From positions 7,055-59,458 of the forward strand of contig JAPLEZ010000032.1 in the NCBI GenBank assembly GCA_026390935.1: 52,404 nt of DNA, read 5' to 3'. This document shows positions 2,343 to 35,625 of this stretch, piece after piece. The notes below the pieces were generated by a model, which worked only from the letters and a program-made list of their open reading frames with translations, was not told the origin of the DNA and did no database searches. The stretch is from Bacteroidota bacterium. Lineage in GTDB: Bacteria; Bacteroidota; Bacteroidia; Flavobacteriales_C; GCA-002722245. The translations under genes and the position numbers were made by a program. Each line of letters opens with the position of its first letter. Position 1 is the first letter of the stretch.

Positions 2343-2744
2343 TCAAGCTGCGTTTTTCTTTTTCCCTTTTAAGTTATATTCTCTATTAAAAGCTTCTTGA
2401 CGCAGTTTAAATCGCTCCGCCAGAATTCGGATACTTTCTTTTGAAAATCCTTTTTTATAATTCAGCATATCAGACACCAAACCCTCACTTACTTTAAGTA
2501 ATCCAGCGATGTGAAGGGCTTTCAATTTATGATCTTTCATTAATGATTTCAGGAGTTGAACAGGATCTGATTCTTTAAAAAAAGAGTGTTGCTTGTCGTA
2601 AGTTTCAATGAGAAGAGTGAGCAAGTTTATTTCATCTTCCAATGCTTTGGTCTTTTTTTTTGAAAAAACTAATTCCTCAAGTATATCACAGTATTGGAAA
2701 TATTGTTTTTCCGAAGTAATTACTTTATACTTTAAAGTTTCCAT
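2343..2744 (-). CDS. higA: HigA-like antitoxin, XRE-family HTH
   Basis: A 133-residue protein with a Cro/C1-type helix-turn-helix in the C-terminal half (around residues 68-115, with LKALHIAGLLKVSEGLVSDM as recognition region). The N-terminal half is charged and helical. It lies 5 bases downstream of the HigB-like toxin on the same strand. The toxin-first order is typical of higBA and unlike most toxin-antitoxin operons. By family knowledge HigA binds and neutralises HigB and represses the operon. Confidence 0.75.
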   Translation of the reverse strand: METLKYKVITSEKQYFQYCDILEELVFSKKKTKALEDEINLLTLLIETYDKQHSFFKESDPVQLLKSLMKDHKLKALHIAGLLKVSEGLVSDMLNYKKGFSKESIRILAERFKLRQEAFNREYNLKGKKKNAA

Positions 2745-2749
2745 GCTTA

Positions 2750-3079
2750 CTAGATTTTTACTGTGTATTGTTGGTTTTTACTGCAAAGTCTGTCGTATTC
2801 GTGATGTGTGCCAATCCAGCAGATGAAAATATGAACTTCTTTTCTGCCAAAATTATATTTGCAAATCATTCTGTATTTATTTCCGCCAATATCAAATATT
2901 ATTCTGTTCGAACTTTTTCCAAGTAAATCAGCAGAGCCAAAATAATTAAGGATATCAGCAGGTTTATCCCAATCCGATTGTTTTATATTATTCAACCTAT
3001 CCTCAAACGCAGCTTTACTTAAAGCGTGCTCTTTAACAAAATTCCTTACGGTAGTTTCCTTAATCAAATGAACTCTCAT
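2750..3079 (-). CDS. higB: HigB-like mRNA interferase toxin
   Basis: A 109-residue protein of the HigB toxin family (RelE-fold, HigB_toxin type). Typical features are the N-terminal helix region with SKAAFEDRLNNIKQSDW, the strand segment RIIFDIGGNKYRMICKYNFG and the C-terminal IFICWIGTHHEYDRL with a catalytic-site His/Tyr pattern. The family cleaves mRNA in the ribosome context. It is followed by higA with a 5-base gap. The pair stands between an HD hydrolase and lpxD and looks intact. Confidence 0.85.
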   Translation of the reverse strand: MRVHLIKETTVRNFVKEHALSKAAFEDRLNNIKQSDWDKPADILNYFGSADLLGKSSNRIIFDIGGNKYRMICKYNFGRKEVHIFICWIGTHHEYDRLCSKNQQYTVKI

Positions 3080-4237: not shown

Positions 4238-4262
4238 CAGTAAATAATTAATTTTGCCCGCT

Positions 4263-4676
4263 ATGGCTTTAATCGTTAAAACTTCCATCTTACCGTCGGC
4301 CGGAAAAGGCCTCTTTACTAACAAACTAATATTAAAGGGCCAAAAAATTGTAGAATACCGAGGGGAAATTATTACCTGGAAAGAGTACAAAAGAAGAGTA
4401 GATCAGGATAGGGATGGCTACCTTTTGTTTATCAATAGAAAGCGCTGTATTGATGCTTTTGATGCACACCAATATAAAGCCCGATATGCCAATGATGCCA
4501 AAGGGTTGAGTAGAGTAAAGGGTTTAAAAAACAACGCTGTATATGAAATTCACGGCGACAAAGGTTTTGTTGTTGCTACTCGTGATATTCAGGCCGGTGA
4601 AGAGATTTTTGTAAACTACAGCAAAGAGTATTGGGACTGCATTCGCCACAACATCAAAAACAACTTGTACAATTAA
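4263..4676 (+). CDS. Small SET-domain protein (putative protein-lysine methyltransferase)
   Basis: 137 residues from the ATG at 4263; an upstream TTG at 4254 adds three residues and is less likely. The protein is almost entirely a SET domain: GKGLFTNKLILKGQKIVEYRGE is the N-terminal SET strand region, RYANDAKG sits at the place of the usual NHS/C motif, and GEEIFVNYSKEYW is the C-terminal GEE-x-Y motif. Known SET enzymes use S-adenosylmethionine to methylate lysines; the bacterial target is unknown. The NHSC motif is replaced by a YANDA form. It is inserted between lpxD and lpxC-fabZ, genes that are commonly adjacent in Bacteroidota, with 25 bases to lpxD and 130 to lpxC, so any link with lipid A may be only positional. 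Confidence 0.8.
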   Translation: MALIVKTSILPSAGKGLFTNKLILKGQKIVEYRGEIITWKEYKRRVDQDRDGYLLFINRKRCIDAFDAHQYKARYANDAKGLSRVKGLKNNAVYEIHGDKGFVVATRDIQAGEEIFVNYSKEYWDCIRHNIKNNLYN

Positions 4677-12929: not shown

Positions 12930-13941
12930 TTATTGTTTAGAGGAGCTTTTAATCAAATTGATTTTTTCATTCACTAATAAGGCCAACAGTGAAAAAACAA
13001 AAGTGCATACTGCAGCCATTATTACAATTAATGAACGTATTGGATATGATTTTTTTTCGGCCGCTTTGGCTTCGTTGACCATAAAGAAGTTGGGAATTCT
13101 TTCATCGGCGTCAATTTTAGCCTCGTCGTATTTTTCTTTCAGCATACTTAGCTGAATGGCGGTGTTTTGAAGCTTTTCTTTAAGGTTGTACTGTTGTGCG
13201 CCGTATTTATTGAGTAGGGCCATTTTTTCATTGATGGATTCCACCGCGGCTTTGTTTCCTTTACCTACAGCATCAGCGTAGGCAGAGGTGAGTACTTCTG
13301 ATTGCGCTTCTACAATGCACTCCTTTTCCCATGATGAAATTCAAGGAGTCTTCCAGACTTTGTTGGTAGGCCATAAAGTTGAGGTAAGATTTTTCCACAA
13401 TTTTAAATCCGGGCATTGATCTTTCTTTTTGAATGTCGTTCATCACGTCATCCAGTATTCGTGCAATTCCGTTAGCGATCGCAGCAGCTTTTACAGCATC
13501 TTTATCTAAAACATTGATTTCAACGGCCATGTATTCGTTGCGGTTGAATTGGATATTGCTTTCAAAAGTCTCGTTCAAATTAGTGTATTTAGAGGCAGAA
13601 GTAGTGTCAATTTCGTAGTGGTTAATCAAATCAAATTGTTTCACTACAGCATCTCTCACCTTGTCGGAATGCAAAACTTGGAGCAATTGTTCCACTTTCT
13701 CTTCTTCACCAAATTCAAGGATGTCACCTTTTCCATTGCTGCTATTGATAAGCACTTTAGAAATAGAACTGGTGTTGGAAGGATATAAAATTACTGTGGA
13801 TTTGAACTTGTTTTCAATTAAAAACGATACTCCGGCTGCCACTACAGCCGCCAATAATGAGAGGATGATAAGAGGCTTTAAATGATTGTAAATAAAGGCA
13901 ATCAATCCGAATGAGCTATTTTGTTTTTCCTGGGCTTCCAT
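12930..13941 (-). pseudogene. Wzz-like gene with a one-base frameshift
   Basis: Two reading frames (13941-13273 and about 13320-12930) together give a protein of about 336 residues matching the intact Wzz at 11971-12927. The N-terminal part has the first transmembrane segment and the conserved QLLQVL...YMAVEINVLD region; the C-terminal part has KKSYPIRSLIVIMAAV and the second transmembrane segment. Removing one A from the four-A run at 13324-13327 (T on the plus strand) restores a continuous frame reading MGKECIVEAQSEVLTS. The break could be a real inactivation, a switchable tract or a sequencing error. Confidence 0.8.
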
Positions 13942-14040: not shown

Positions 14041-14763
14041 TTATTTTGTTGCTACAAAGTAGTATTCTTTGTTGGTGTTGAAACACTCTTCAAATTCCTT
14101 GGTTGTTAGCGGAGAATGTTGATTTATAAAGGATTTCAGTGTGTATATTTTAAGTCCGATTTCAATAGTAATAAAATCATACAACTCATTGGGCTTAGTG
14201 CCATAAAAGTCGCTGGCACCCAGTCCGCTTTCAAAAATGATAGTAGGCTTGTCCTTTTTGAGTAGGTTTTTTGCCCCTTTCAATACCCCGAATTCACCGC
14301 CTTCCACATCAATTTTGATCAAATCAATTTTTATGTCGCTCGGAATCAACTCATCCAAGGTTTTTAATTCCACTTTAATTTCTTCGATATCAGGATTTGC
14401 TGTATCGTAATTTCTTTTGTTGATACCACTATACGCAGGGGCGTTCTTTACAAAGTTAAAAGTCGATGTTCCGTTTTTATCTGAAAGAGCGTAAGGATAA
14501 ATTGTTGCTTTGCTGTTGTATTTTTCTTTCAACGCATTAAACAAATAGGGGATGGGTTCAAAGCCAAAATGCCTGCCTTTAGGAGAAAGTTTTAAGATGG
14601 AATCCAGTATTTCTCCTTTATGACAACCTACATCAATGCAGTTGGATGAAGCTTTGATTTCCTGTTTCAAAATGATTTTTGTCAATCGGTCGTATTCCAA
14701 GTTTTTGGTTAAATCCAAATGGAGAAAATTCAAAGTGGTTCTGATCGCGTTTTTGATACTCAT
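14041..14763 (-). CDS. FkbM-family SAM-dependent methyltransferase
   Basis: A 240-residue protein. The SAM-binding motif I is SNCIDVGCHKGEILDSIL with the following acidic residue in HFGFEPIPYLF. The FkbM hallmark DLIKIDVEGGEFGVLKGA is present. Such enzymes O-methylate sugars or other small substrates; inside this locus the target is plausibly a glycan sugar. It lies 33 bases downstream of the flippase gene on the same strand. Confidence 0.88.
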   Translation of the reverse strand: MSIKNAIRTTLNFLHLDLTKNLEYDRLTKIILKQEIKASSNCIDVGCHKGEILDSILKLSPKGRHFGFEPIPYLFNALKEKYNSKATIYPYALSDKNGTSTFNFVKNAPAYSGINKRNYDTANPDIEEIKVELKTLDELIPSDIKIDLIKIDVEGGEFGVLKGAKNLLKKDKPTIIFESGLGASDFYGTKPNELYDFITIEIGLKIYTLKSFINQHSPLTTKEFEECFNTNKEYYFVATK

Positions 14764-14795: not shown

Positions 14796-16312
14796 TTAGG
14801 AAGTTTTGCTTTTTAGCAACTTGGATATTCCGGGTAGAGGAATAGTTTTAGTAACTATAGCAATTGCGAAACCAACACAAATGGCTGCCGTTATTTGAAG
14901 CGGCCAGGGGATGGTACTTTGTTGCAGCAAATATAGACTTGCGCCGAAAATCGTAAGTGTCAGTAGGTTTTTGAATAAATGCGACCAATCAAAATGTAAC
15001 GAGAATTTCTTGGTGGCTAAGGCTATTTGAAGCAAGCAAACTATGCTTTGGGTCAACAAACTAATGATGGCAGAACCTAGCGGACCATAAATAGGAATCA
15101 GTAAAAAATTCCCTCCTAAATTAATCACAACGCCAATAGCTGCTGTAATATTAAGGCTTTTCATTTCTCCGGCAGCAGTGAGCAAGGTGCCGTACACATA
15201 CAGAGCGCTGATAGGAATAAAATTTAAAATCACATACATGAAAATATCTGCCGACAAAGCCACTTCTGCGGGATTTTGAATACCTGACAATTCGCCATTG
15301 AAGGAGAGTAAAATTCTTTGCGCCATGTTGGTGCCGTCTACTTTTCCATACAAGGCCGAAATTATTTCAGTAGAAAAAGCGGCACAGGAAACCGCAATAA
15401 AAACTGAAGTTAAAATGAGCAAAGAGCTTGCTAAGCGGATCAGTTCTTCTGGATTTTCTTTTTAGAAATCATTTTGGAAAACATGGGCAACAACAACACC
15501 GAAAAAAGATAGGAGATGTTGGTTAAAGCCAGCAGAATCCGGAACGACTGCGCGTAAACGCCCGCAGCTTCATCGCCATTAGGAAGCATTCTTTCCAGCA
15601 TTACCGAATCGGAAAAGGAGTAGAGCAACATTAGAATACCTATCAAGGCATAAGGCAAGCATTTCTTTAGGAATACAAGGGAAAAGGCCAGATCAAACCT
15701 GAGTTTGAATTTTATTTTTGAATGTGTCACCAGAAAAATTCCGGCCAGTAAAACAGCAAAAAGATATCCTAAAGTTTGGATATAAATAAACCATTCAATT
15801 TTAAATGTTTCGGTTTTTACGGCATAGAGCATATAAATGACTAGAAGTGCCATGATCACTCTGTCAGCAATTGAAATGACGCTATCACTTCTGAAAAAAT
15901 GCAGTCCTTGCAAGTTGGATCTTAAATACAAAAGTAAAGCAAGTAGCAATTGATTAACACCCAAGCTTCCCAGCATGAACATAGCTGTTGAACTATAATT
16001 CAAAATCCAACCAGTAATGAAAATAAGTAGGAGGTAGATGATACCCAATAAAGCCCTGAGCGGAATGAGTCGATTGGTATATTTTTCAATTAGTAGTGGG
16101 TTTCCGGCAATTTCCTTATTGTTGAAATTAACGATGCCAGCATCTAAAATAATGTTGAAAATGAGGGTGAGATTAAACAGCGCGAAATACAATCCGTAAT
16201 GCTCTGTGCCCACTTTGTTTTGCACTTCAATTTCAATAAATACCCATAGTGGTTTAATCAATAGATTGAGAAAAACCAGTAGGAGGATATTTACAAGGAA
16301 GTTTCTTTTCAT
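14796..16312 (-). pseudogene. Polysaccharide flippase (Wzx/MOP family) with a one-base frameshift
   Basis: Two frames (16312-15440 and about 15460-14796) together encode a membrane protein of about 505 residues with some 14 hydrophobic segments, the size of a MOP-family lipid-linked oligosaccharide flippase. The first frame ends in a short off-frame tail (KKKIQKN). Adding one A in the A runs at 15454-15463 gives the continuous reading SKKENPEELIRLASSLL. This indel in a homopolymer may be real, phase-variable or an error. Part of the 5' end is duplicated at 20183-20357. Confidence 0.82.
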
Positions 16313-16377
16313 GCGGCCGACTAAGGTAACTATCTTTTGTGTTGTTGGAAAAAATACAGAAATTACTGGAAATATAT

Positions 16378-16385
16378 TACATTTG
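16378..16385 (+). promoter_or_regulatory. -7 box upstream of the secreted DUF5060 protein gene
   Basis: TACATTTG matches TAnnTTTG and lies 38 bases before the ATG at 16424, in the gap between the divergent flippase and this gene. No well-spaced -33 TTG was found. Confidence 0.4.
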
Positions 16386-16423
16386 TGCCCGATTAGCCTT
16401 GCTTAAACTAAATTTAAATCTTT

Positions 16424-19400
16424 ATGAAACACATGCTATTATTGGTTGCTATGTCCTTCATTTTAATAGGGCAAGCTCAAACTCTCAATTTTTTCAGTCC
16501 GGTCAACGGAGTTGTTGGTCAGTATGAAAAAATGGAATTCAGCGTCAACACACTGGCATCCACACAAACATTGATTGATAATTTTTTTGGAGATGGAGGT
16601 TATGGTCGCGCATTTAACTTGTCGAATGGAAACATCAATCCTTACGACCCAGATCAGATCAGCATTGAAGTTACTTTTACTTCGCCTAGTAATCCATCAA
16701 TACCTGCACAGGTGATTTATGGATTTTATTATCGTGAGTATAGTTATTCGCAATCAACAATGGATCTTACCACTACATATATAGAGAATAAAACCCTAAG
16801 TACGCATTGGCGCGTGCGTTTTGCGCCAAAGTACCTTGGACAGTGGATAGGTAAATTGGTCATTCGTCACAATGGTGTTGTGATTTATTCTGATGCTGTT
16901 GGTAAAACCTTTACCTGTGTGGCTTCAGCTAATAAGGGCTTCGTGCAATTGGGTGCCAATAAAAAGTATTTGAAATATTCGAACGGTGATGAAGTTTTTC
17001 CGGTAGGAGTGTGTACTTCTCATGGAGATCCTTATTTAGATGGAGATATGACTAAGCACAGTCCGATAGAATACAATGAATTCCGAAAAACTTTAAATAC
17101 AGTTGCGGATGGCGGTGCGAATTACACAAAAATATGTTTTACTCCTTATTCCTTTCAGATAGAATGGGAAAAGCTGAATGTTTATGATGCTTATCCAGGA
17201 ACTGGACCAGTGGATAACGCTCGTTCCCGTCAGGCGGTCATGTGGGAATTCGATAATGTTTTAGACTTGGCAAAAAACAAAAATTTATTGCTGCACCTTT
17301 CTCTTGATTTGCCTCAGGAAGGTTTTGTTACCTATAAAGATGCAAATGGCCAACCTATTAATTATGCTTATCACTGGCCAACCAATCCTTACAAATCCGC
17401 TTCTGTTCAAACAGTCGATGATTTTTTTAGTGATCCTAATGCCATTAAAACATATAATAAGAGAATTCGCTACATGATAGCTCGCTGGGGATATAGTACC
17501 AACATTGCTCATTTTGAAATATTGAATGAAGTAGATTATTTATCTGATGCTATGAAATACCCAACACCAGCTAACTTTACCTATTGCGATAATATATTAA
17601 CGAACTGGCATAATGCCATTGCTAATCATATAAAAGTCACCTTAAATCATAAAGAGCATCTTGTAGGAACTTGTTTCGGGATTTATGATTTTCATATCGC
17701 ATCGGGTTCTTCTATTGATGCCAACAACCCTCATGTTTATAGTATGTCGCGTGATGCTATTGAACGACGTCATGTTGTTGTTACAAGATTTGCGCAATGG
17801 ACTCAAAAACCCAATTTTTTGTCTGAATTTGGATCGATATTTTATGATAATGGATGCGCACCTTTAGAAGTTGGAGTGCTTGAAGCTGTAAAGCCAACTT
17901 TTCATGGAGGTTTATGGGCAAGTGTATTTACTGGTTCTCCGATTTCTGGTTTGGATTGGTATGCATATACACCGGTAACGCCGAGAGTTCCAACACCTTC
18001 TTATATTTTAGCGGAATTTCCGGTACTTAAAAAGTTTATGGCAGGAACTAAATTGGATGTAGGCAATTTTGTTCCTCAGAAATATCCTCTGTCGCCTCTT
18101 CCTGCTAACCATGATGCCGACATTTTGGAAACTTTTATGTTGGTTAATAACGGAGGTGTTGCAGCTACTGAAATTTTGGGATGGACTAATAATAAAACTT
18201 ATTACTGGAAGAATTTATCCTCAGACGTAAGCTGTAAATATTATGATAACAAGGTGCCTGTATATGAAACTATGTGCAATGGCGGTTATTCTCCAGAGCA
18301 GAATATGCTTGACGACAGCTATAATTGTCCGCTAGAAGGACAACTGGGTACTTTTGTAGTGAACGGTGTAATTCCTAATAAAAAGTACGGAGTGGAGTGG
18401 TACAGCACCAGCACAGGAGAGATGATCAAAACAGATTTAGTGATGTCCTCTTCATCTTCTCAGCTTACCATCGCGCCTCCTGCTATGATTAACACCAATA
18501 TGGATTATGCTTTCAAAATCCGCGTTTTTACAGGTCCTTGCAGTGTCAATGACCGACTGGCTATCGCCGTTGTTGAAGGAAACACACAAAAATCTTCCAT
18601 TGTGCTGAACAACCGGTGCAACCAGGCCAACGGTGCTATTCGCAGTATCAACATTAGCAACAATAATCAGTTTTTGATCAACCATGGGATCGATAAGTTC
18701 GATGGTTGGATGGATGAATCAGATAAACTATTTATTGCTGATGTGAATGCGGATAATGTCGAAGATATGATATTGGTGAATACTACTTATTCAATGGGCG
18801 CTATCCGTTCTGTTGATCTTAAAACCGGTGCGGATATTACCCGGTTAGGGCATGGTACCTATAGCGGCTGGATGGACGCTACTGATAAAATGTTTGTAGG
18901 TGATGTTAACGGTGATGCCAAAGCTGATCTGATATTGGTCAATACGTCTTATACTAACGGAGCCATTCGTGTAGTGGATTTGGCTACAGGAAGCAATATC
19001 GTCTGGATCAATCACGGAGATTTTGGCGATTGGATGGATGCAAGCGATAAAATGTTTTTGGGTGATGTGAACGGGGACAATAAAAAAGATCTGGTACTTG
19101 TAAATACTAGTTATTCTGGTGGAGCAATTCGTGTTATTAATCTCACCACAGGGGGCAATCTGGCGTGGATCAGTCATGGTGATTTTGGTGGATGGATGGA
19201 TGGTACCGACAGAATGTTTGTAGGCGATGTCAATGCCGATGCTAAGGAAGATCTGGTGTTGCTGAATACAGCTTATGCACCAGGAGTAGGTGCTGTAAGA
19301 TCTGTAAGTCTGCAAGGCACCACCGTTAGTAATTTGGCGTGGGTGAGTCATACTTCTTCTCTGTTCCAGAACTGGATGGATGCCAGCGACAAGATTTTAC

Positions 19401-20035
19401 TGGAAGATGTGAACGGCGACAACAAAAAAGATCTCGTGTTTGCCAACACTGATGGAGTGAACGGTTACCTGAAAGCATTCAACATTGTGGCCGGAACAAA
19501 TATTGCTACACTTACTTCAGGACCATTTTCAGGATGGCTAGATTGTTCCGACAGACTTATGATAGGTGACGTTACTGGCAATACTACTAAAGAAGTAGTA
19601 CTAGTGAACTCGGCCAATAATTTCGGTGCTTTCCTGGCCTATAATTTTGTAACAGCTACAATGACCATCAAAAATCATAGTGACTATACTTACGGTCTCA
19701 ATGGTTGGAAAGATGGTGCCGATGCCAATACTATTTGCGGAACTATACCTTCAGGAGCCAATCCGTACAGAAGCGACGAAGAAATAGTGACTGAAGAGCA
19801 GGGGACTATCATCACCGTATATCCTAATCCTTCCTCAGGATCACTTATTATTGCAGGTGTTGTGAAACAGGATGAGGTGAAGATATACAGTTTGTTGGGT
19901 GCAGAGCTTTATTCAAAAGAAGTTACTGAAATCCCGCTGAGAGTTGATGCCGGATTTTTGTCCAATGGAATTTATTTTGTTGAGGTGAACAGCAATGGCA
20001 ATAAAACCAATGTCAAGATCATTATAGAAAAATAA
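16424..20035 (+). CDS. Secreted DUF5060/glycoside-hydrolase-like protein with FG-GAP-type repeats and type IX sorting domain
   Basis: A 1203-residue protein. A signal peptide (MKHMLLLVAMSFILIGQAQT) is followed by a DUF5060-like beta domain (about 25-165; STHWRVRFAPKYLGQW) and a TIM-barrel glycosidase-like domain (about 170-600). Candidate catalytic Glu residues are in HFEILNEVDYL (about 364) and NFLSEFGSIF (about 466), fitting a retaining GH5/GH-A-type arrangement. Residues about 735-1105 hold six or seven repeats of GWMDxSDKxFxxDVNxDxxxDLxLVN type, FG-GAP/VCBS-like with Asp/Asn-rich calcium-binding loops. The last about 73 residues (from ITVYPNPSSGS) are a type A type IX secretion sorting domain. 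It is probably exported by the type IX system and cell-surface attached or released. Its substrate is unknown; the polysaccharide context suggests glycan processing. Confidence 0.85.
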   Translation: MKHMLLLVAMSFILIGQAQTLNFFSPVNGVVGQYEKMEFSVNTLASTQTLIDNFFGDGGYGRAFNLSNGNINPYDPDQISIEVTFTSPSNPSIPAQVIYGFYYREYSYSQSTMDLTTTYIENKTLSTHWRVRFAPKYLGQWIGKLVIRHNGVVIYSDAVGKTFTCVASANKGFVQLGANKKYLKYSNGDEVFPVGVCTSHGDPYLDGDMTKHSPIEYNEFRKTLNTVADGGANYTKICFTPYSFQIEWEKLNVYDAYPGTGPVDNARSRQAVMWEFDNVLDLAKNKNLLLHLSLDLPQEGFVTYKDANGQPINYAYHWPTNPYKSASVQTVDDFFSDPNAIKTYNKRIRYMIARWGYSTNIAHFEILNEVDYLSDAMKYPTPANFTYCDNILTNWHNAIANHIKVTLNHKEHLVGTCFGIYDFHIASGSSIDANNPHVYSMSRDAIERRHVVVTRFAQWTQKPNFLSEFGSIFYDNGCAPLEVGVLEAVKPTFHGGLWASVFTGSPISGLDWYAYTPVTPRVPTPSYILAEFPVLKKFMAGTKLDVGNFVPQKYPLSPLPANHDADILETFMLVNNGGVAATEILGWTNNKTYYWKNLSSDVSCKYYDNKVPVYETMCNGGYSPEQNMLDDSYNCPLEGQLGTFVVNGVIPNKKYGVEWYSTSTGEMIKTDLVMSSSSSQLTIAPPAMINTNMDYAFKIRVFTGPCSVNDRLAIAVVEGNTQKSSIVLNNRCNQANGAIRSINISNNNQFLINHGIDKFDGWMDESDKLFIADVNADNVEDMILVNTTYSMGAIRSVDLKTGADITRLGHGTYSGWMDATDKMFVGDVNGDAKADLILVNTSYTNGAIRVVDLATGSNIVWINHGDFGDWMDASDKMFLGDVNGDNKKDLVLVNTSYSGGAIRVINLTTGGNLAWISHGDFGGWMDGTDRMFVGDVNADAKEDLVLLNTAYAPGVGAVRSVSLQGTTVSNLAWVSHTSSLFQNWMDASDKILLEDVNGDNKKDLVFANTDGVNGYLKAFNIVAGTNIATLTSGPFSGWLDCSDRLMIGDVTGNTTKEVVLVNSANNFGAFLAYNFVTATMTIKNHSDYTYGLNGWKDGADANTICGTIPSGANPYRSDEEIVTEEQGTIITVYPNPSSGSLIIAGVVKQDEVKIYSLLGAELYSKEVTEIPLRVDAGFLSNGIYFVEVNSNGNKTNVKIIIEK

Positions 20036-20061
20036 AAGTGCAGTTTCACAACCTACAGGAT

Positions 20062-20118
20062 AAGGGCCGTTGGAAATTAAATGGTAATGCAATCACTATT
20101 TAATTTCCAATGGCCCTT
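20062..20118 (+). terminator. Terminator hairpin after the DUF5060 gene
   Basis: The 21-base arms 20062-20082 and 20098-20118 pair with one mismatch (AAGGGCC...GGCCCTT ends) around a 15-base loop, 27 bases after the stop codon. A short T-rich stretch follows. This probably ends the upstream transcript. Confidence 0.7.
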
Positions 20119-20182
20119 GTTAATTTTAAATTCTGGACAAATTAATTAAATCATTCAAATATAAAGGAGAACTACTGGCTGA

Positions 20183-20357
20183 GGGTTTCTAGCAATTTCC
20201 TTATTGTTGAAATTAACGATGCCAGCATCTAAAATCATGTTGAGAATGAGATTAAACAGCGCGAAATACAATCCGTAATGTTCTATGCCCACTTTGTTTT
20301 GCAATTCAATTTCAATAAATAACCACAATGGTTTTATCAATAAATTGAGAAAGACCA
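20183..20357 (-). pseudogene. Truncated copy of the flippase 5' region
   Basis: By hand alignment this block matches 16098-16278 inside the flippase gene with about 13 mismatches over 175 bases and one 6-base gap, in the same orientation. The encoded segment is KPLWLFIEIELQNKVGIEHY and onward, lacking two residues. It has neither the flippase start region nor the rest of the gene. It is a partial duplication that brackets the DUF5060 gene together with the full flippase. Confidence 0.85.
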
Positions 20358-20455
20358 TCATGGTGTTGTGATTTTGTTTCGGAAACATATTTCATTTTTT
20401 TTACTTTAGCGCTGCATGCCCTATTTCGGTATTTATGTTGAGATCTTTCAATTTT

Positions 20456-22324
20456 ATGGAGCAAAAAAATAATAAATCGTTAATTGCTGTTTGGGTCATT
20501 GTTTTTGCAATACTGCTGGCGCATGTTTTTAACCCGAGAACTTCCGGTGACCAATATAAAAAGGAATTGTCGTACGATACTTTTTGCTATTACCTCTATC
20601 TCCCCACTACTTTTATATACGATGACATAGAAATGCAAAAACAGGATACCATTAAATCTCTGTTTGAAAAGTATAAACCTTCACCTACATTATATCAGAT
20701 TTACCAAATTGAAAATGGGAACTGGACACCTAACTACACGTGTGGTTTAGCGATACTTTGGTTTCCTTCATTTTTAGTGGGGCATACATGGGCAAGTCTT
20801 TCAGATTATTATCCGGCTGATGGTTTTTCTTTTCCTTATCAGTTTAGTGTTGCGATGGGAACAATACTAATGATCCTCAGTGGTGTTTTTGCGCTCAGGA
20901 AAGTTTTGCTAAACTTTTTTACAGATGGAGTTTCTGCCATTACCTTGTTGTTGATTGTATTTGGAACGGTTTATTTCCATGAGGCTTTTGACGATTATTT
21001 ACAACCCAATGCTTTGCTTTTTGCGGGCTACGCCTTGCTTTTACATTGTACAATATTATGGCACAAAACTCCCAAAAAGAAGTATGCAATATATATAGGT
21101 TTGCTGATGGGCATAATGATTTTAATCCGTCCAAGTGAAATCTTATGTGTTTTGCTGCCTTTGTTTTGGAATGTGTCCGATAAGGTTTCTTTTAAAGCGA
21201 AGTTGGATTTGGTTAAAAGTAATTTTTCGCATGTAGTATATGTTATGGTTGCAGTTTTTATAGCTGCCCTTCCGCAAATTATTTATTGGAAGATAGTGAC
21301 TGATTCTTTTATCTTTTTCTCCTATCAACGCACCGAAGGATTTGATTTTGCGCATCCACACTTTTTTGAATCCCTTTTCAGTTTCAAGAAAAGTTTATTG
21401 ATATACACGCCACTTACAGTTTTTCCGGTGATAGGAATATTTTTTCTGAGAAGGCATCGAAGGGAAATTTATTTTTCTGTCTTGAGTTTTGTGGTTCTTA
21501 ATTTCTTATTGTTGGCTTCGTGGTCCTGCTGGTGGCAAGGAGGGGGTTATGGCTCAAGATATTTTACGCAGTCTTTTGTGGTGATGGCTCTGCCGCTTGG
21601 TGTACTGATCAATTCGTTGCTGGGAGCAAAGCTTTGGATGAAATTAGTATTCGGTACTCCAATGTTGATTCTCACCGCGTTGAATCTTTTTCAAACTTGG
21701 CAGTACGTTAACTTTATTATTCCACCTGATCGAATGAATTTTGACTATTATAAAAGGATATGGTTGAAAACTGAAGTAAATGATGAAGATAGGTCGTTCA
21801 TGGAAATAGAGCGTTCTTATGGTCCTACGGAAGCATTTTCAAATGAACAGAATTACAACAGGAGAAGCGCTGCTTTTTTTAATTTTGAAAATCTCAATAC
21901 TGATTATGTGGATGCCGGAAGATTGGATACTTTTTCTTTAAGCAAACCTTATTCATACCGTTATGCCCCAGATCAAGAGTGGGGCTTGGAATACAATATC
22001 CCTTATGAGCAATTGCTCAAGAAAGGTGATGATCATGTTTGGCTTCGCGTATCAGTGGATTATTTTGCAGGGGCAAGTATTTCTGAAAATCCAGCGACTA
22101 TTGTTGTTAATATGCCTCATGGTGATTATTTGCTGAAATACAAGGCTTTTGATCTGGAAAAACATCCGTTCATACCCAATGAGTGGAACCATATTTCTTT
22201 TGATTACATGACCCCTTTTCCTTATTTAGAAAGTGATAAAATACAGATTTATGTGTGGCATAAGGGCAAGAAGAATTTCTACATCGACAATTTGCATATT
22301 GAGGCTTTCCACAAAAAAAGATAA
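20456..22324 (+). CDS. GT-C-like multi-pass membrane protein with C-terminal soluble domain
   Basis: About 622 residues from the ATG at 20456 (an alternative ATG at 20435 adds seven). About ten hydrophobic helices fill residues 10-430, beginning with SLIAVWVIVFAILLAHVF. The layout with a periplasmic loop after helix 1 (YDTFCYYLYLPTTF) resembles GT-C (PMT/ArnT-like) lipid-linked glycosyltransferases. The C-terminal about 190 residues look soluble and beta-rich, ending with KKNFYIDNLHIEAF. No family could be confirmed. It overlaps functionally with the small partner gene that follows after 5 bases. Confidence 0.6.
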   Translation: MEQKNNKSLIAVWVIVFAILLAHVFNPRTSGDQYKKELSYDTFCYYLYLPTTFIYDDIEMQKQDTIKSLFEKYKPSPTLYQIYQIENGNWTPNYTCGLAILWFPSFLVGHTWASLSDYYPADGFSFPYQFSVAMGTILMILSGVFALRKVLLNFFTDGVSAITLLLIVFGTVYFHEAFDDYLQPNALLFAGYALLLHCTILWHKTPKKKYAIYIGLLMGIMILIRPSEILCVLLPLFWNVSDKVSFKAKLDLVKSNFSHVVYVMVAVFIAALPQIIYWKIVTDSFIFFSYQRTEGFDFAHPHFFESLFSFKKSLLIYTPLTVFPVIGIFFLRRHRREIYFSVLSFVVLNFLLLASWSCWWQGGGYGSRYFTQSFVVMALPLGVLINSLLGAKLWMKLVFGTPMLILTALNLFQTWQYVNFIIPPDRMNFDYYKRIWLKTEVNDEDRSFMEIERSYGPTEAFSNEQNYNRRSAAFFNFENLNTDYVDAGRLDTFSLSKPYSYRYAPDQEWGLEYNIPYEQLLKKGDDHVWLRVSVDYFAGASISENPATIVVNMPHGDYLLKYKAFDLEKHPFIPNEWNHISFDYMTPFPYLESDKIQIYVWHKGKKNFYIDNLHIEAFHKKR

Positions 22325-35091: not shown

Positions 35092-35625
35092 ATGAAAACA
35101 CAACAAGGAATAACTACGCCTGATGAAATGCTTATCAATAAAATTTATTTCATCAGAGGACAAAAAGTAATGTTAGATAGGGATTTAGCTGAGCTTTATG
35201 GAGTGGAGACAAGGAGATTGAATGAGCAGGTCAGGAGGAATATTGATCGTTTTCCTGAAGATTTTATGTTTCAGCTGACTCCCGAAGAACTTGAAAACTT
35301 GATGTCGCATTTTGCGACATCAAGTTGGGGAGGGATAAGAAAAATGCCTTTAGTCTTCACGGAACATGGTGTTTTAATGCTTTCTTCAGTTTTGAATAGT
35401 CAGCGTGCAATACAGGTGAATATTCAAATTATGCGGGTTTATACCAAATTACGTGAAGCTATTCTTACTAATAAAGATATTTTGTTAAAACTTGAGCAGC
35501 TTGAAAAACAATCGAGTAAACAAAGCAAAGAAATTCAATACATTTTTGATGTGTTAAAGAAATTGATTGAACAACCTGTTCAACCGAGGACAATGATTGG
35601 TTATAAGTTGAAAAGGGAAGAGTAA
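35092..35625 (+). CDS. ORF6N-domain DNA-binding protein
   Basis: 177 residues. The N-terminal about 90 residues form an ORF6N domain (KIYFIRGQKVMLDRDLAELY, LNEQVRRNIDRFPEDFMFQL, FTEHGVLMLSSVLNSQRA), and the C-terminal part is a helical coiled segment. ORF6N occurs in phage and mobile-element regulators and also in many bacterial chromosomes with unknown function. It is directly followed by the large inverted-repeat element at 35724-35836. Confidence 0.85.
   Translation: MKTQQGITTPDEMLINKIYFIRGQKVMLDRDLAELYGVETRRLNEQVRRNIDRFPEDFMFQLTPEELENLMSHFATSSWGGIRKMPLVFTEHGVLMLSSVLNSQRAIQVNIQIMRVYTKLREAILTNKDILLKLEQLEKQSSKQSKEIQYIFDVLKKLIEQPVQPRTMIGYKLKREE

Follow-up and report, generated by a model that had tools for sequence, protein, structure and literature searches.

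How did part of a polysaccharide flippase gene come to lie on the far side of a gene encoding a large secreted protein, about 4 kb from the full-length flippase gene? The question is raised by a window of 52,404 nucleotides, the whole stretch of DNA that was analysed, from a Bacteroidota bacterium. Two segments in the window match each other; the left one lies within the flippase gene, and the right one is a short flippase stub (Table 1).

The repeat and the genes around it

The first-pass annotation, made from the sequence alone, had reported the pair with about 13 mismatches and one 6-base gap, in the same orientation, bracketing a gene for a protein of 1203 residues. Repeat finding and alignment reproduce this description exactly, including the coordinates. 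The two copies point the same way, with the open reading frame of the 1203-residue protein between them, and are identical in 162 of 175 aligned bases (92.6%), with 13 mismatches and one 6-base gap in the pairwise alignment. No exact run common to both exceeds 44 bases. When the whole genome (3.76 Mb in 155 contigs) was searched, the right copy was matched at E = 2.8e-64, which excludes a chance origin of the repeat, and no third copy was found.

Table 1 Features of the flippase locus, in positions of the window
Feature	Position	Strand	Basis and remarks
Wzx-type polysaccharide flippase gene, frameshift-split	14796-16312	-	ORFs 15440-16312 (290 aa) and 14796-15422 (208 aa) in different frames; PF01943
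Left repeat copy	16098-16278	-	Approximately codons 12-72 of the flippase gene; repeat finding and alignment
Flippase upstream region	16313-16374	.	Conserved with G002 and G004 in alignments; homology ends near 16374
Gene of the 1203-aa secreted protein	16424-20035	+	ORF; profile matches: weak DUF5060-like N-terminal part, FG-GAP repeats, type IX sorting domain
Hairpin with 27-nt arms	20062-20118	+	Inverted repeat; fold -39.3 kcal/mol, z -9.2
Right repeat copy (flippase stub)	20183-20357	-	Genome search and alignment; no matching start region or promoter; 6-base in-frame deletion
Gene of a 629-aa membrane protein, weak PMT_2-like match	20435-22324	+	ORF; profile; ortholog follows the cassette in G002

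The stub is 175 bases long, and the homology to the flippase ends abruptly at 20183. Neither the initial codons nor the upstream region that relatives share with the left copy are present in the stub. The frame of the stub is open from 20155 to 20388 (77 amino acids), and the gap keeps the frame. Positions 20036-20182 gave only self-matches and weak hits in the loci compared, and 20020-20470 has no further copy in the genome apart from the flippase gene itself. Upstream regions were compared as a test of whether the duplication extended across the promoter; 16362-16426 and 20373-20437 reached the joint top score of 406 upstream pairs, a score equalled by an unrelated control pair (16424/35092). 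Besides the repeat under study, no short flanking direct repeat was recognised around the gene of the 1203-residue protein. Insertion of a mobile element (transposon, integron or IS) is not supported, as neither a repeated element nor terminal repeats were recognised at the insertion.

The 1203-residue protein carries a type IX C-terminal sorting domain in residues 1132-1201 (PF18962, 41.6 bits; TIGR04183, 39.7 bits) and a match to FG-GAP repeats. The match to DUF5060 (PF16586), the label used in the first-pass annotation, has 22.8 bits, below the curated cutoff of 27.2. Pfam and NCBIfam scans matched no catalytic glycosidase family in the protein; therefore, the designation as glycosidase-like is unproven. 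A literature search for DUF5060 in the context of glycoside hydrolases returned nothing relevant. The gene has a G+C content of 37-43%, with 34-43% in its neighbourhood, which is nothing striking. Five 78-base repeats, 162-180 bases apart, lie within the gene at 18707-19450 and overlap the FG-GAP stretch. The hairpin downstream is probably the terminator of the gene.

The N-terminal piece of the flippase matches PF01943 (Polysacc_synt) with 50.1 bits against a cutoff of 28.2, and the match spans most of the N-terminal half; the intact flippase of the closest relative, G002, reaches 53.1 bits. The flippase is a single open reading frame of 503-506 amino acids in G001-G003 and one open frame in G004. 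Unlike G001-G003, the genome studied here has no intact reading frame of about 500 amino acids for the flippase, which may be a pseudogene or may contain a sequencing error. The locus also encodes a Wzy_C protein and Wzz-like proteins. The first Wzz-like gene (12930-13941) is likewise split by a frameshift; in relatives it is a single open reading frame of 335-337 amino acids, intact in G001-G003. Should both frameshifts be genuine, the locus may be losing its polysaccharide pathway, with the stub as part of a wider remodelling. A gene for an FkbM-type methyltransferase (14041-14763) lies between the flippase and the Wzz gene. It is not found at this place in G001-G004; a 70% identical gene is present at another place in G004.

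The locus in related genomes

The first-pass annotation had proposed that relatives lacking the inserted gene should have a single, uninterrupted flippase, and this is what all four congeners have. A match to the flippase is present in all nine family members examined. The N-terminal 689 residues of the 1203-residue protein, a query that finds itself in its own genome (G000), have no match in any of the nine. The possibility that all relatives carry the flippase fragment falls away as well: none of the nine has a separate stub, and across ten genomes, including the one studied here, the stub region matches only the flippase in G001-G004 and nothing in G005-G009. In a sample of 395 genomes from the phylum, the N-terminal 689 residues were matched in four, one of which is the genome itself, with at most 34% identity in the others. 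Identity to the closest relatives of the gene is 31-34%, and a few more distant relatives of the protein occur among 60 relatives. Of the eight loci bearing relatives of the gene, none has matches to the flippase, Wzy, Wzz or the cassette described below, and no donor in which the gene adjoins a flippase was found among the loci examined.

The closest relative reveals what occupies the place of the new gene. In G002, the flippase is followed, in divergent orientation, by genes for a GT2 glycosyltransferase, a DUF2304 protein and a 447-residue membrane protein, and then by the gene of a 622-residue ortholog of the protein encoded at 20435. The same three cassette genes lie beside the flippase in G004. 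The neighbours of the flippase in G001 and G003 differ from those in G002, and thus the spot is variable. The genome studied here contains only distant matches to the 447-residue protein (35%) and the GT2 protein (30%), and no ortholog of either. At either end of the locus, the genes show synteny with G002. Since the three-gene cassette is absent and its place is taken by the new gene and the stub, the variable polysaccharide locus has undergone a replacement. The earlier proposal, that duplication or recombination had inserted the gene beside the flippase, is therefore correct in part: the absence of the gene and stub from all nine family members and the single, uninterrupted flippase of the four congeners support recombination, but insertion alone does not account for the missing cassette. 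The region upstream of the flippase matches G002 and G004 until approximately position 16374 and then diverges; this position marks the left edge of the replaced segment.

Partial flippase copies were absent from 35 related flippase loci, several of which are cut by contig ends; the same test detects the stub of the genome studied here. An apparent second flippase fragment in G004 was rejected as a recurrence, because it is a 149-base exact overlap of the ends of two contigs (C6 and C106).

Origin of the repeat

The copies differ from each other by a dS of 0.235 and a dN of 0.045. By contrast, the left copy and its counterpart in G002, the nearest species, are separated by a dS of 1.305 and a dN of 0.033. 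The repeat is therefore far younger than the split from G002, yet not very recent. With the copies 7.4% apart and a dS of approximately 0.24, the first-pass description of the event as recent is too strong, albeit the divergence is far below the 1.3 to the nearest species. The dS between the copies is compatible with either the divergence of a donor from the recipient or the age of a duplication. The repeat takes in the most conserved part of the flippase gene: the first 150 bases are 87%, 79% and 81% identical to G002, G004 and G001, respectively, and the values beyond are mostly 47-79%. It is plausible from this pattern of conservation that the 5′ part served as an anchor for recombination.

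We favour, with about even confidence, the reading that the repeat is the scar of a cassette exchange in a variable polysaccharide locus of the Wzx/Wzy type, anchored by homology in the flippase on one side and joined illegitimately on the other. The sequence of events that we infer, including the donor and the one-sided mechanism, would be as follows. A related strain or sister species would have supplied DNA with the 5′ end of a flippase gene and, beside it, the gene of the 1203-residue protein, and one side of this DNA would have paired by homology with the flippase region of the resident. On the other side, an illegitimate join would have formed within the resident flippase near codon 72, so that the 5′ end of the resident gene stayed behind, to the right of the new gene, as the stub. 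A deletion at the same time or later would have taken away the initial codons and the promoter of the stub together with the old GT2-DUF2304-membrane protein cassette, to just upstream of the gene of the 629-residue protein. This second event is needed because the stub lacks its own first codons.

The chief rival, and a serious one, is a local duplication, which we consider possible but somewhat less probable than the cassette exchange. According to this explanation, the 5′ region of the flippase duplicated on the spot when the new gene arrived, either in tandem or through a template switch in break repair, and deletions then trimmed the copy. There would have been no donor flippase, and the 7.4% divergence would be the age of the copy. 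In favour of a local duplication, the two copies resemble each other (92.6%) far more closely than they resemble any relative (at most 84.5%). Most lineage-unique changes lie in the stub, and at four of the 13 mismatches, which are private to the stub, all four relatives agree with the left copy. The ratio of dN to dS is raised between the copies, which differ by 7 synonymous and 6 non-synonymous changes, versus 23.5 and 4.5 between the left copy and G002; the excess is borderline, with a Fisher p of 0.049 or 0.073 depending on the rounding of half counts. The amino-acid changes in the stub fall on residues conserved in relatives, and these substitutions hint at relaxed constraint on the protein. 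However, at four other mismatches the stub has the state of G001, and at three of them also that of G003, which is a weak hint of separate ancestry. At all four of these sites, the left copy agrees with G002 and G004, joined at one of them by G003. A tree of the 181-base segment joins the right copy with G001 and G003 at a node with a support of 49 and does not discriminate a resident from a donor stub. Furthermore, local duplication alone leaves the loss of the cassette and the gain of the gene unexplained.

A chimera or a join of mixed strains in the metagenome bin is improbable. The draft state of the genome, in 155 contigs, and the frameshifts in two nearby genes would speak for it. However, a single 59-kb contig contains both copies well away from its ends, and synteny with G002 holds for the genes at the two ends of the locus. 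The 13 differing sites and the gap, together with exact runs of no more than 44 bases within this single contig, make it unlikely that the copies were mixed up in assembly, and the assembly itself displays no sign of the chimera that the first-pass annotation had named as a concern.

It is very improbable that the stub has been kept as a functional element, either as a peptide of 77 residues, for which the open frame and the in-frame gap would speak, or as an RNA complementary to the flippase message through transcription of the plus strand: a 58-codon stretch at such divergence would often stay open by chance, the changes strike residues that relatives conserve, the strong probable terminator separates the new gene from the stub, and none of the 35 related loci carries a partial copy. 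It is also very improbable that the stub was retained because a transcript complementary to the flippase message couples expression of the secreted protein to that of the flippase.

Known systems and other features of the window

The cassette exchange would be ordinary in kind, an instance of a well-understood process. Homology-facilitated illegitimate recombination (HFIR) is described in PMC3240628, a paper that does not concern this locus and according to which one-sided illegitimate recombination is rare where it has been measured. As in HFIR, a foreign gene would have entered by way of a homologous anchor, with a homology-free junction and loss of resident DNA. The anchor side would correspond to the conserved 5′ part of the flippase and the upstream region at the left edge, and the junction side to position 20183, where the flippase homology stops. 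Unlike in HFIR, the stub is also trimmed at its start, and the two-sided nature of the event is presumed.

A study of a different locus, the type VI secretion clusters of Vibrio (PMC5361080), uses the same one-sided recombination in a model that explains leftover genes. Like the orphan immunity genes of Vibrio cholerae described there, the stub would be a remnant downstream of a new module that displaced an old one. However, the remnant in V. cholerae is a whole and possibly useful gene, whereas the stub amounts to a short piece of a transporter gene. The locus also resembles cassette exchange in Wzx/Wzy-dependent systems, in that genes for the flippase, Wzz and Wzy are conserved on either side of a segment with a gene content that varies among species. 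By contrast, the newcomer here is no glycosyltransferase but a secreted protein that carries a type IX sorting domain. A literature search for truncated wzx copies associated with recombination returned no match.

The locus records a step of turnover in uncultured Flavobacteriales-type bacteria, with a before-state identifiable in a sister species. It lost a glycosyltransferase cassette and acquired the gene of a secreted type IX protein, next to flippase and Wzz genes that now look broken. The case helps in reading polysaccharide loci.

Elsewhere in the window, a gene for a small SET-domain protein is located at 4254-4676, between lipid A genes. An ORF6N-domain protein is encoded at 35092-35625; the domain is often found in phages and mobile elements. 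A HigB-type toxin gene (PF09907) at 2343-3079 is followed by a small partner gene, with which it likely forms a toxin-antitoxin pair.
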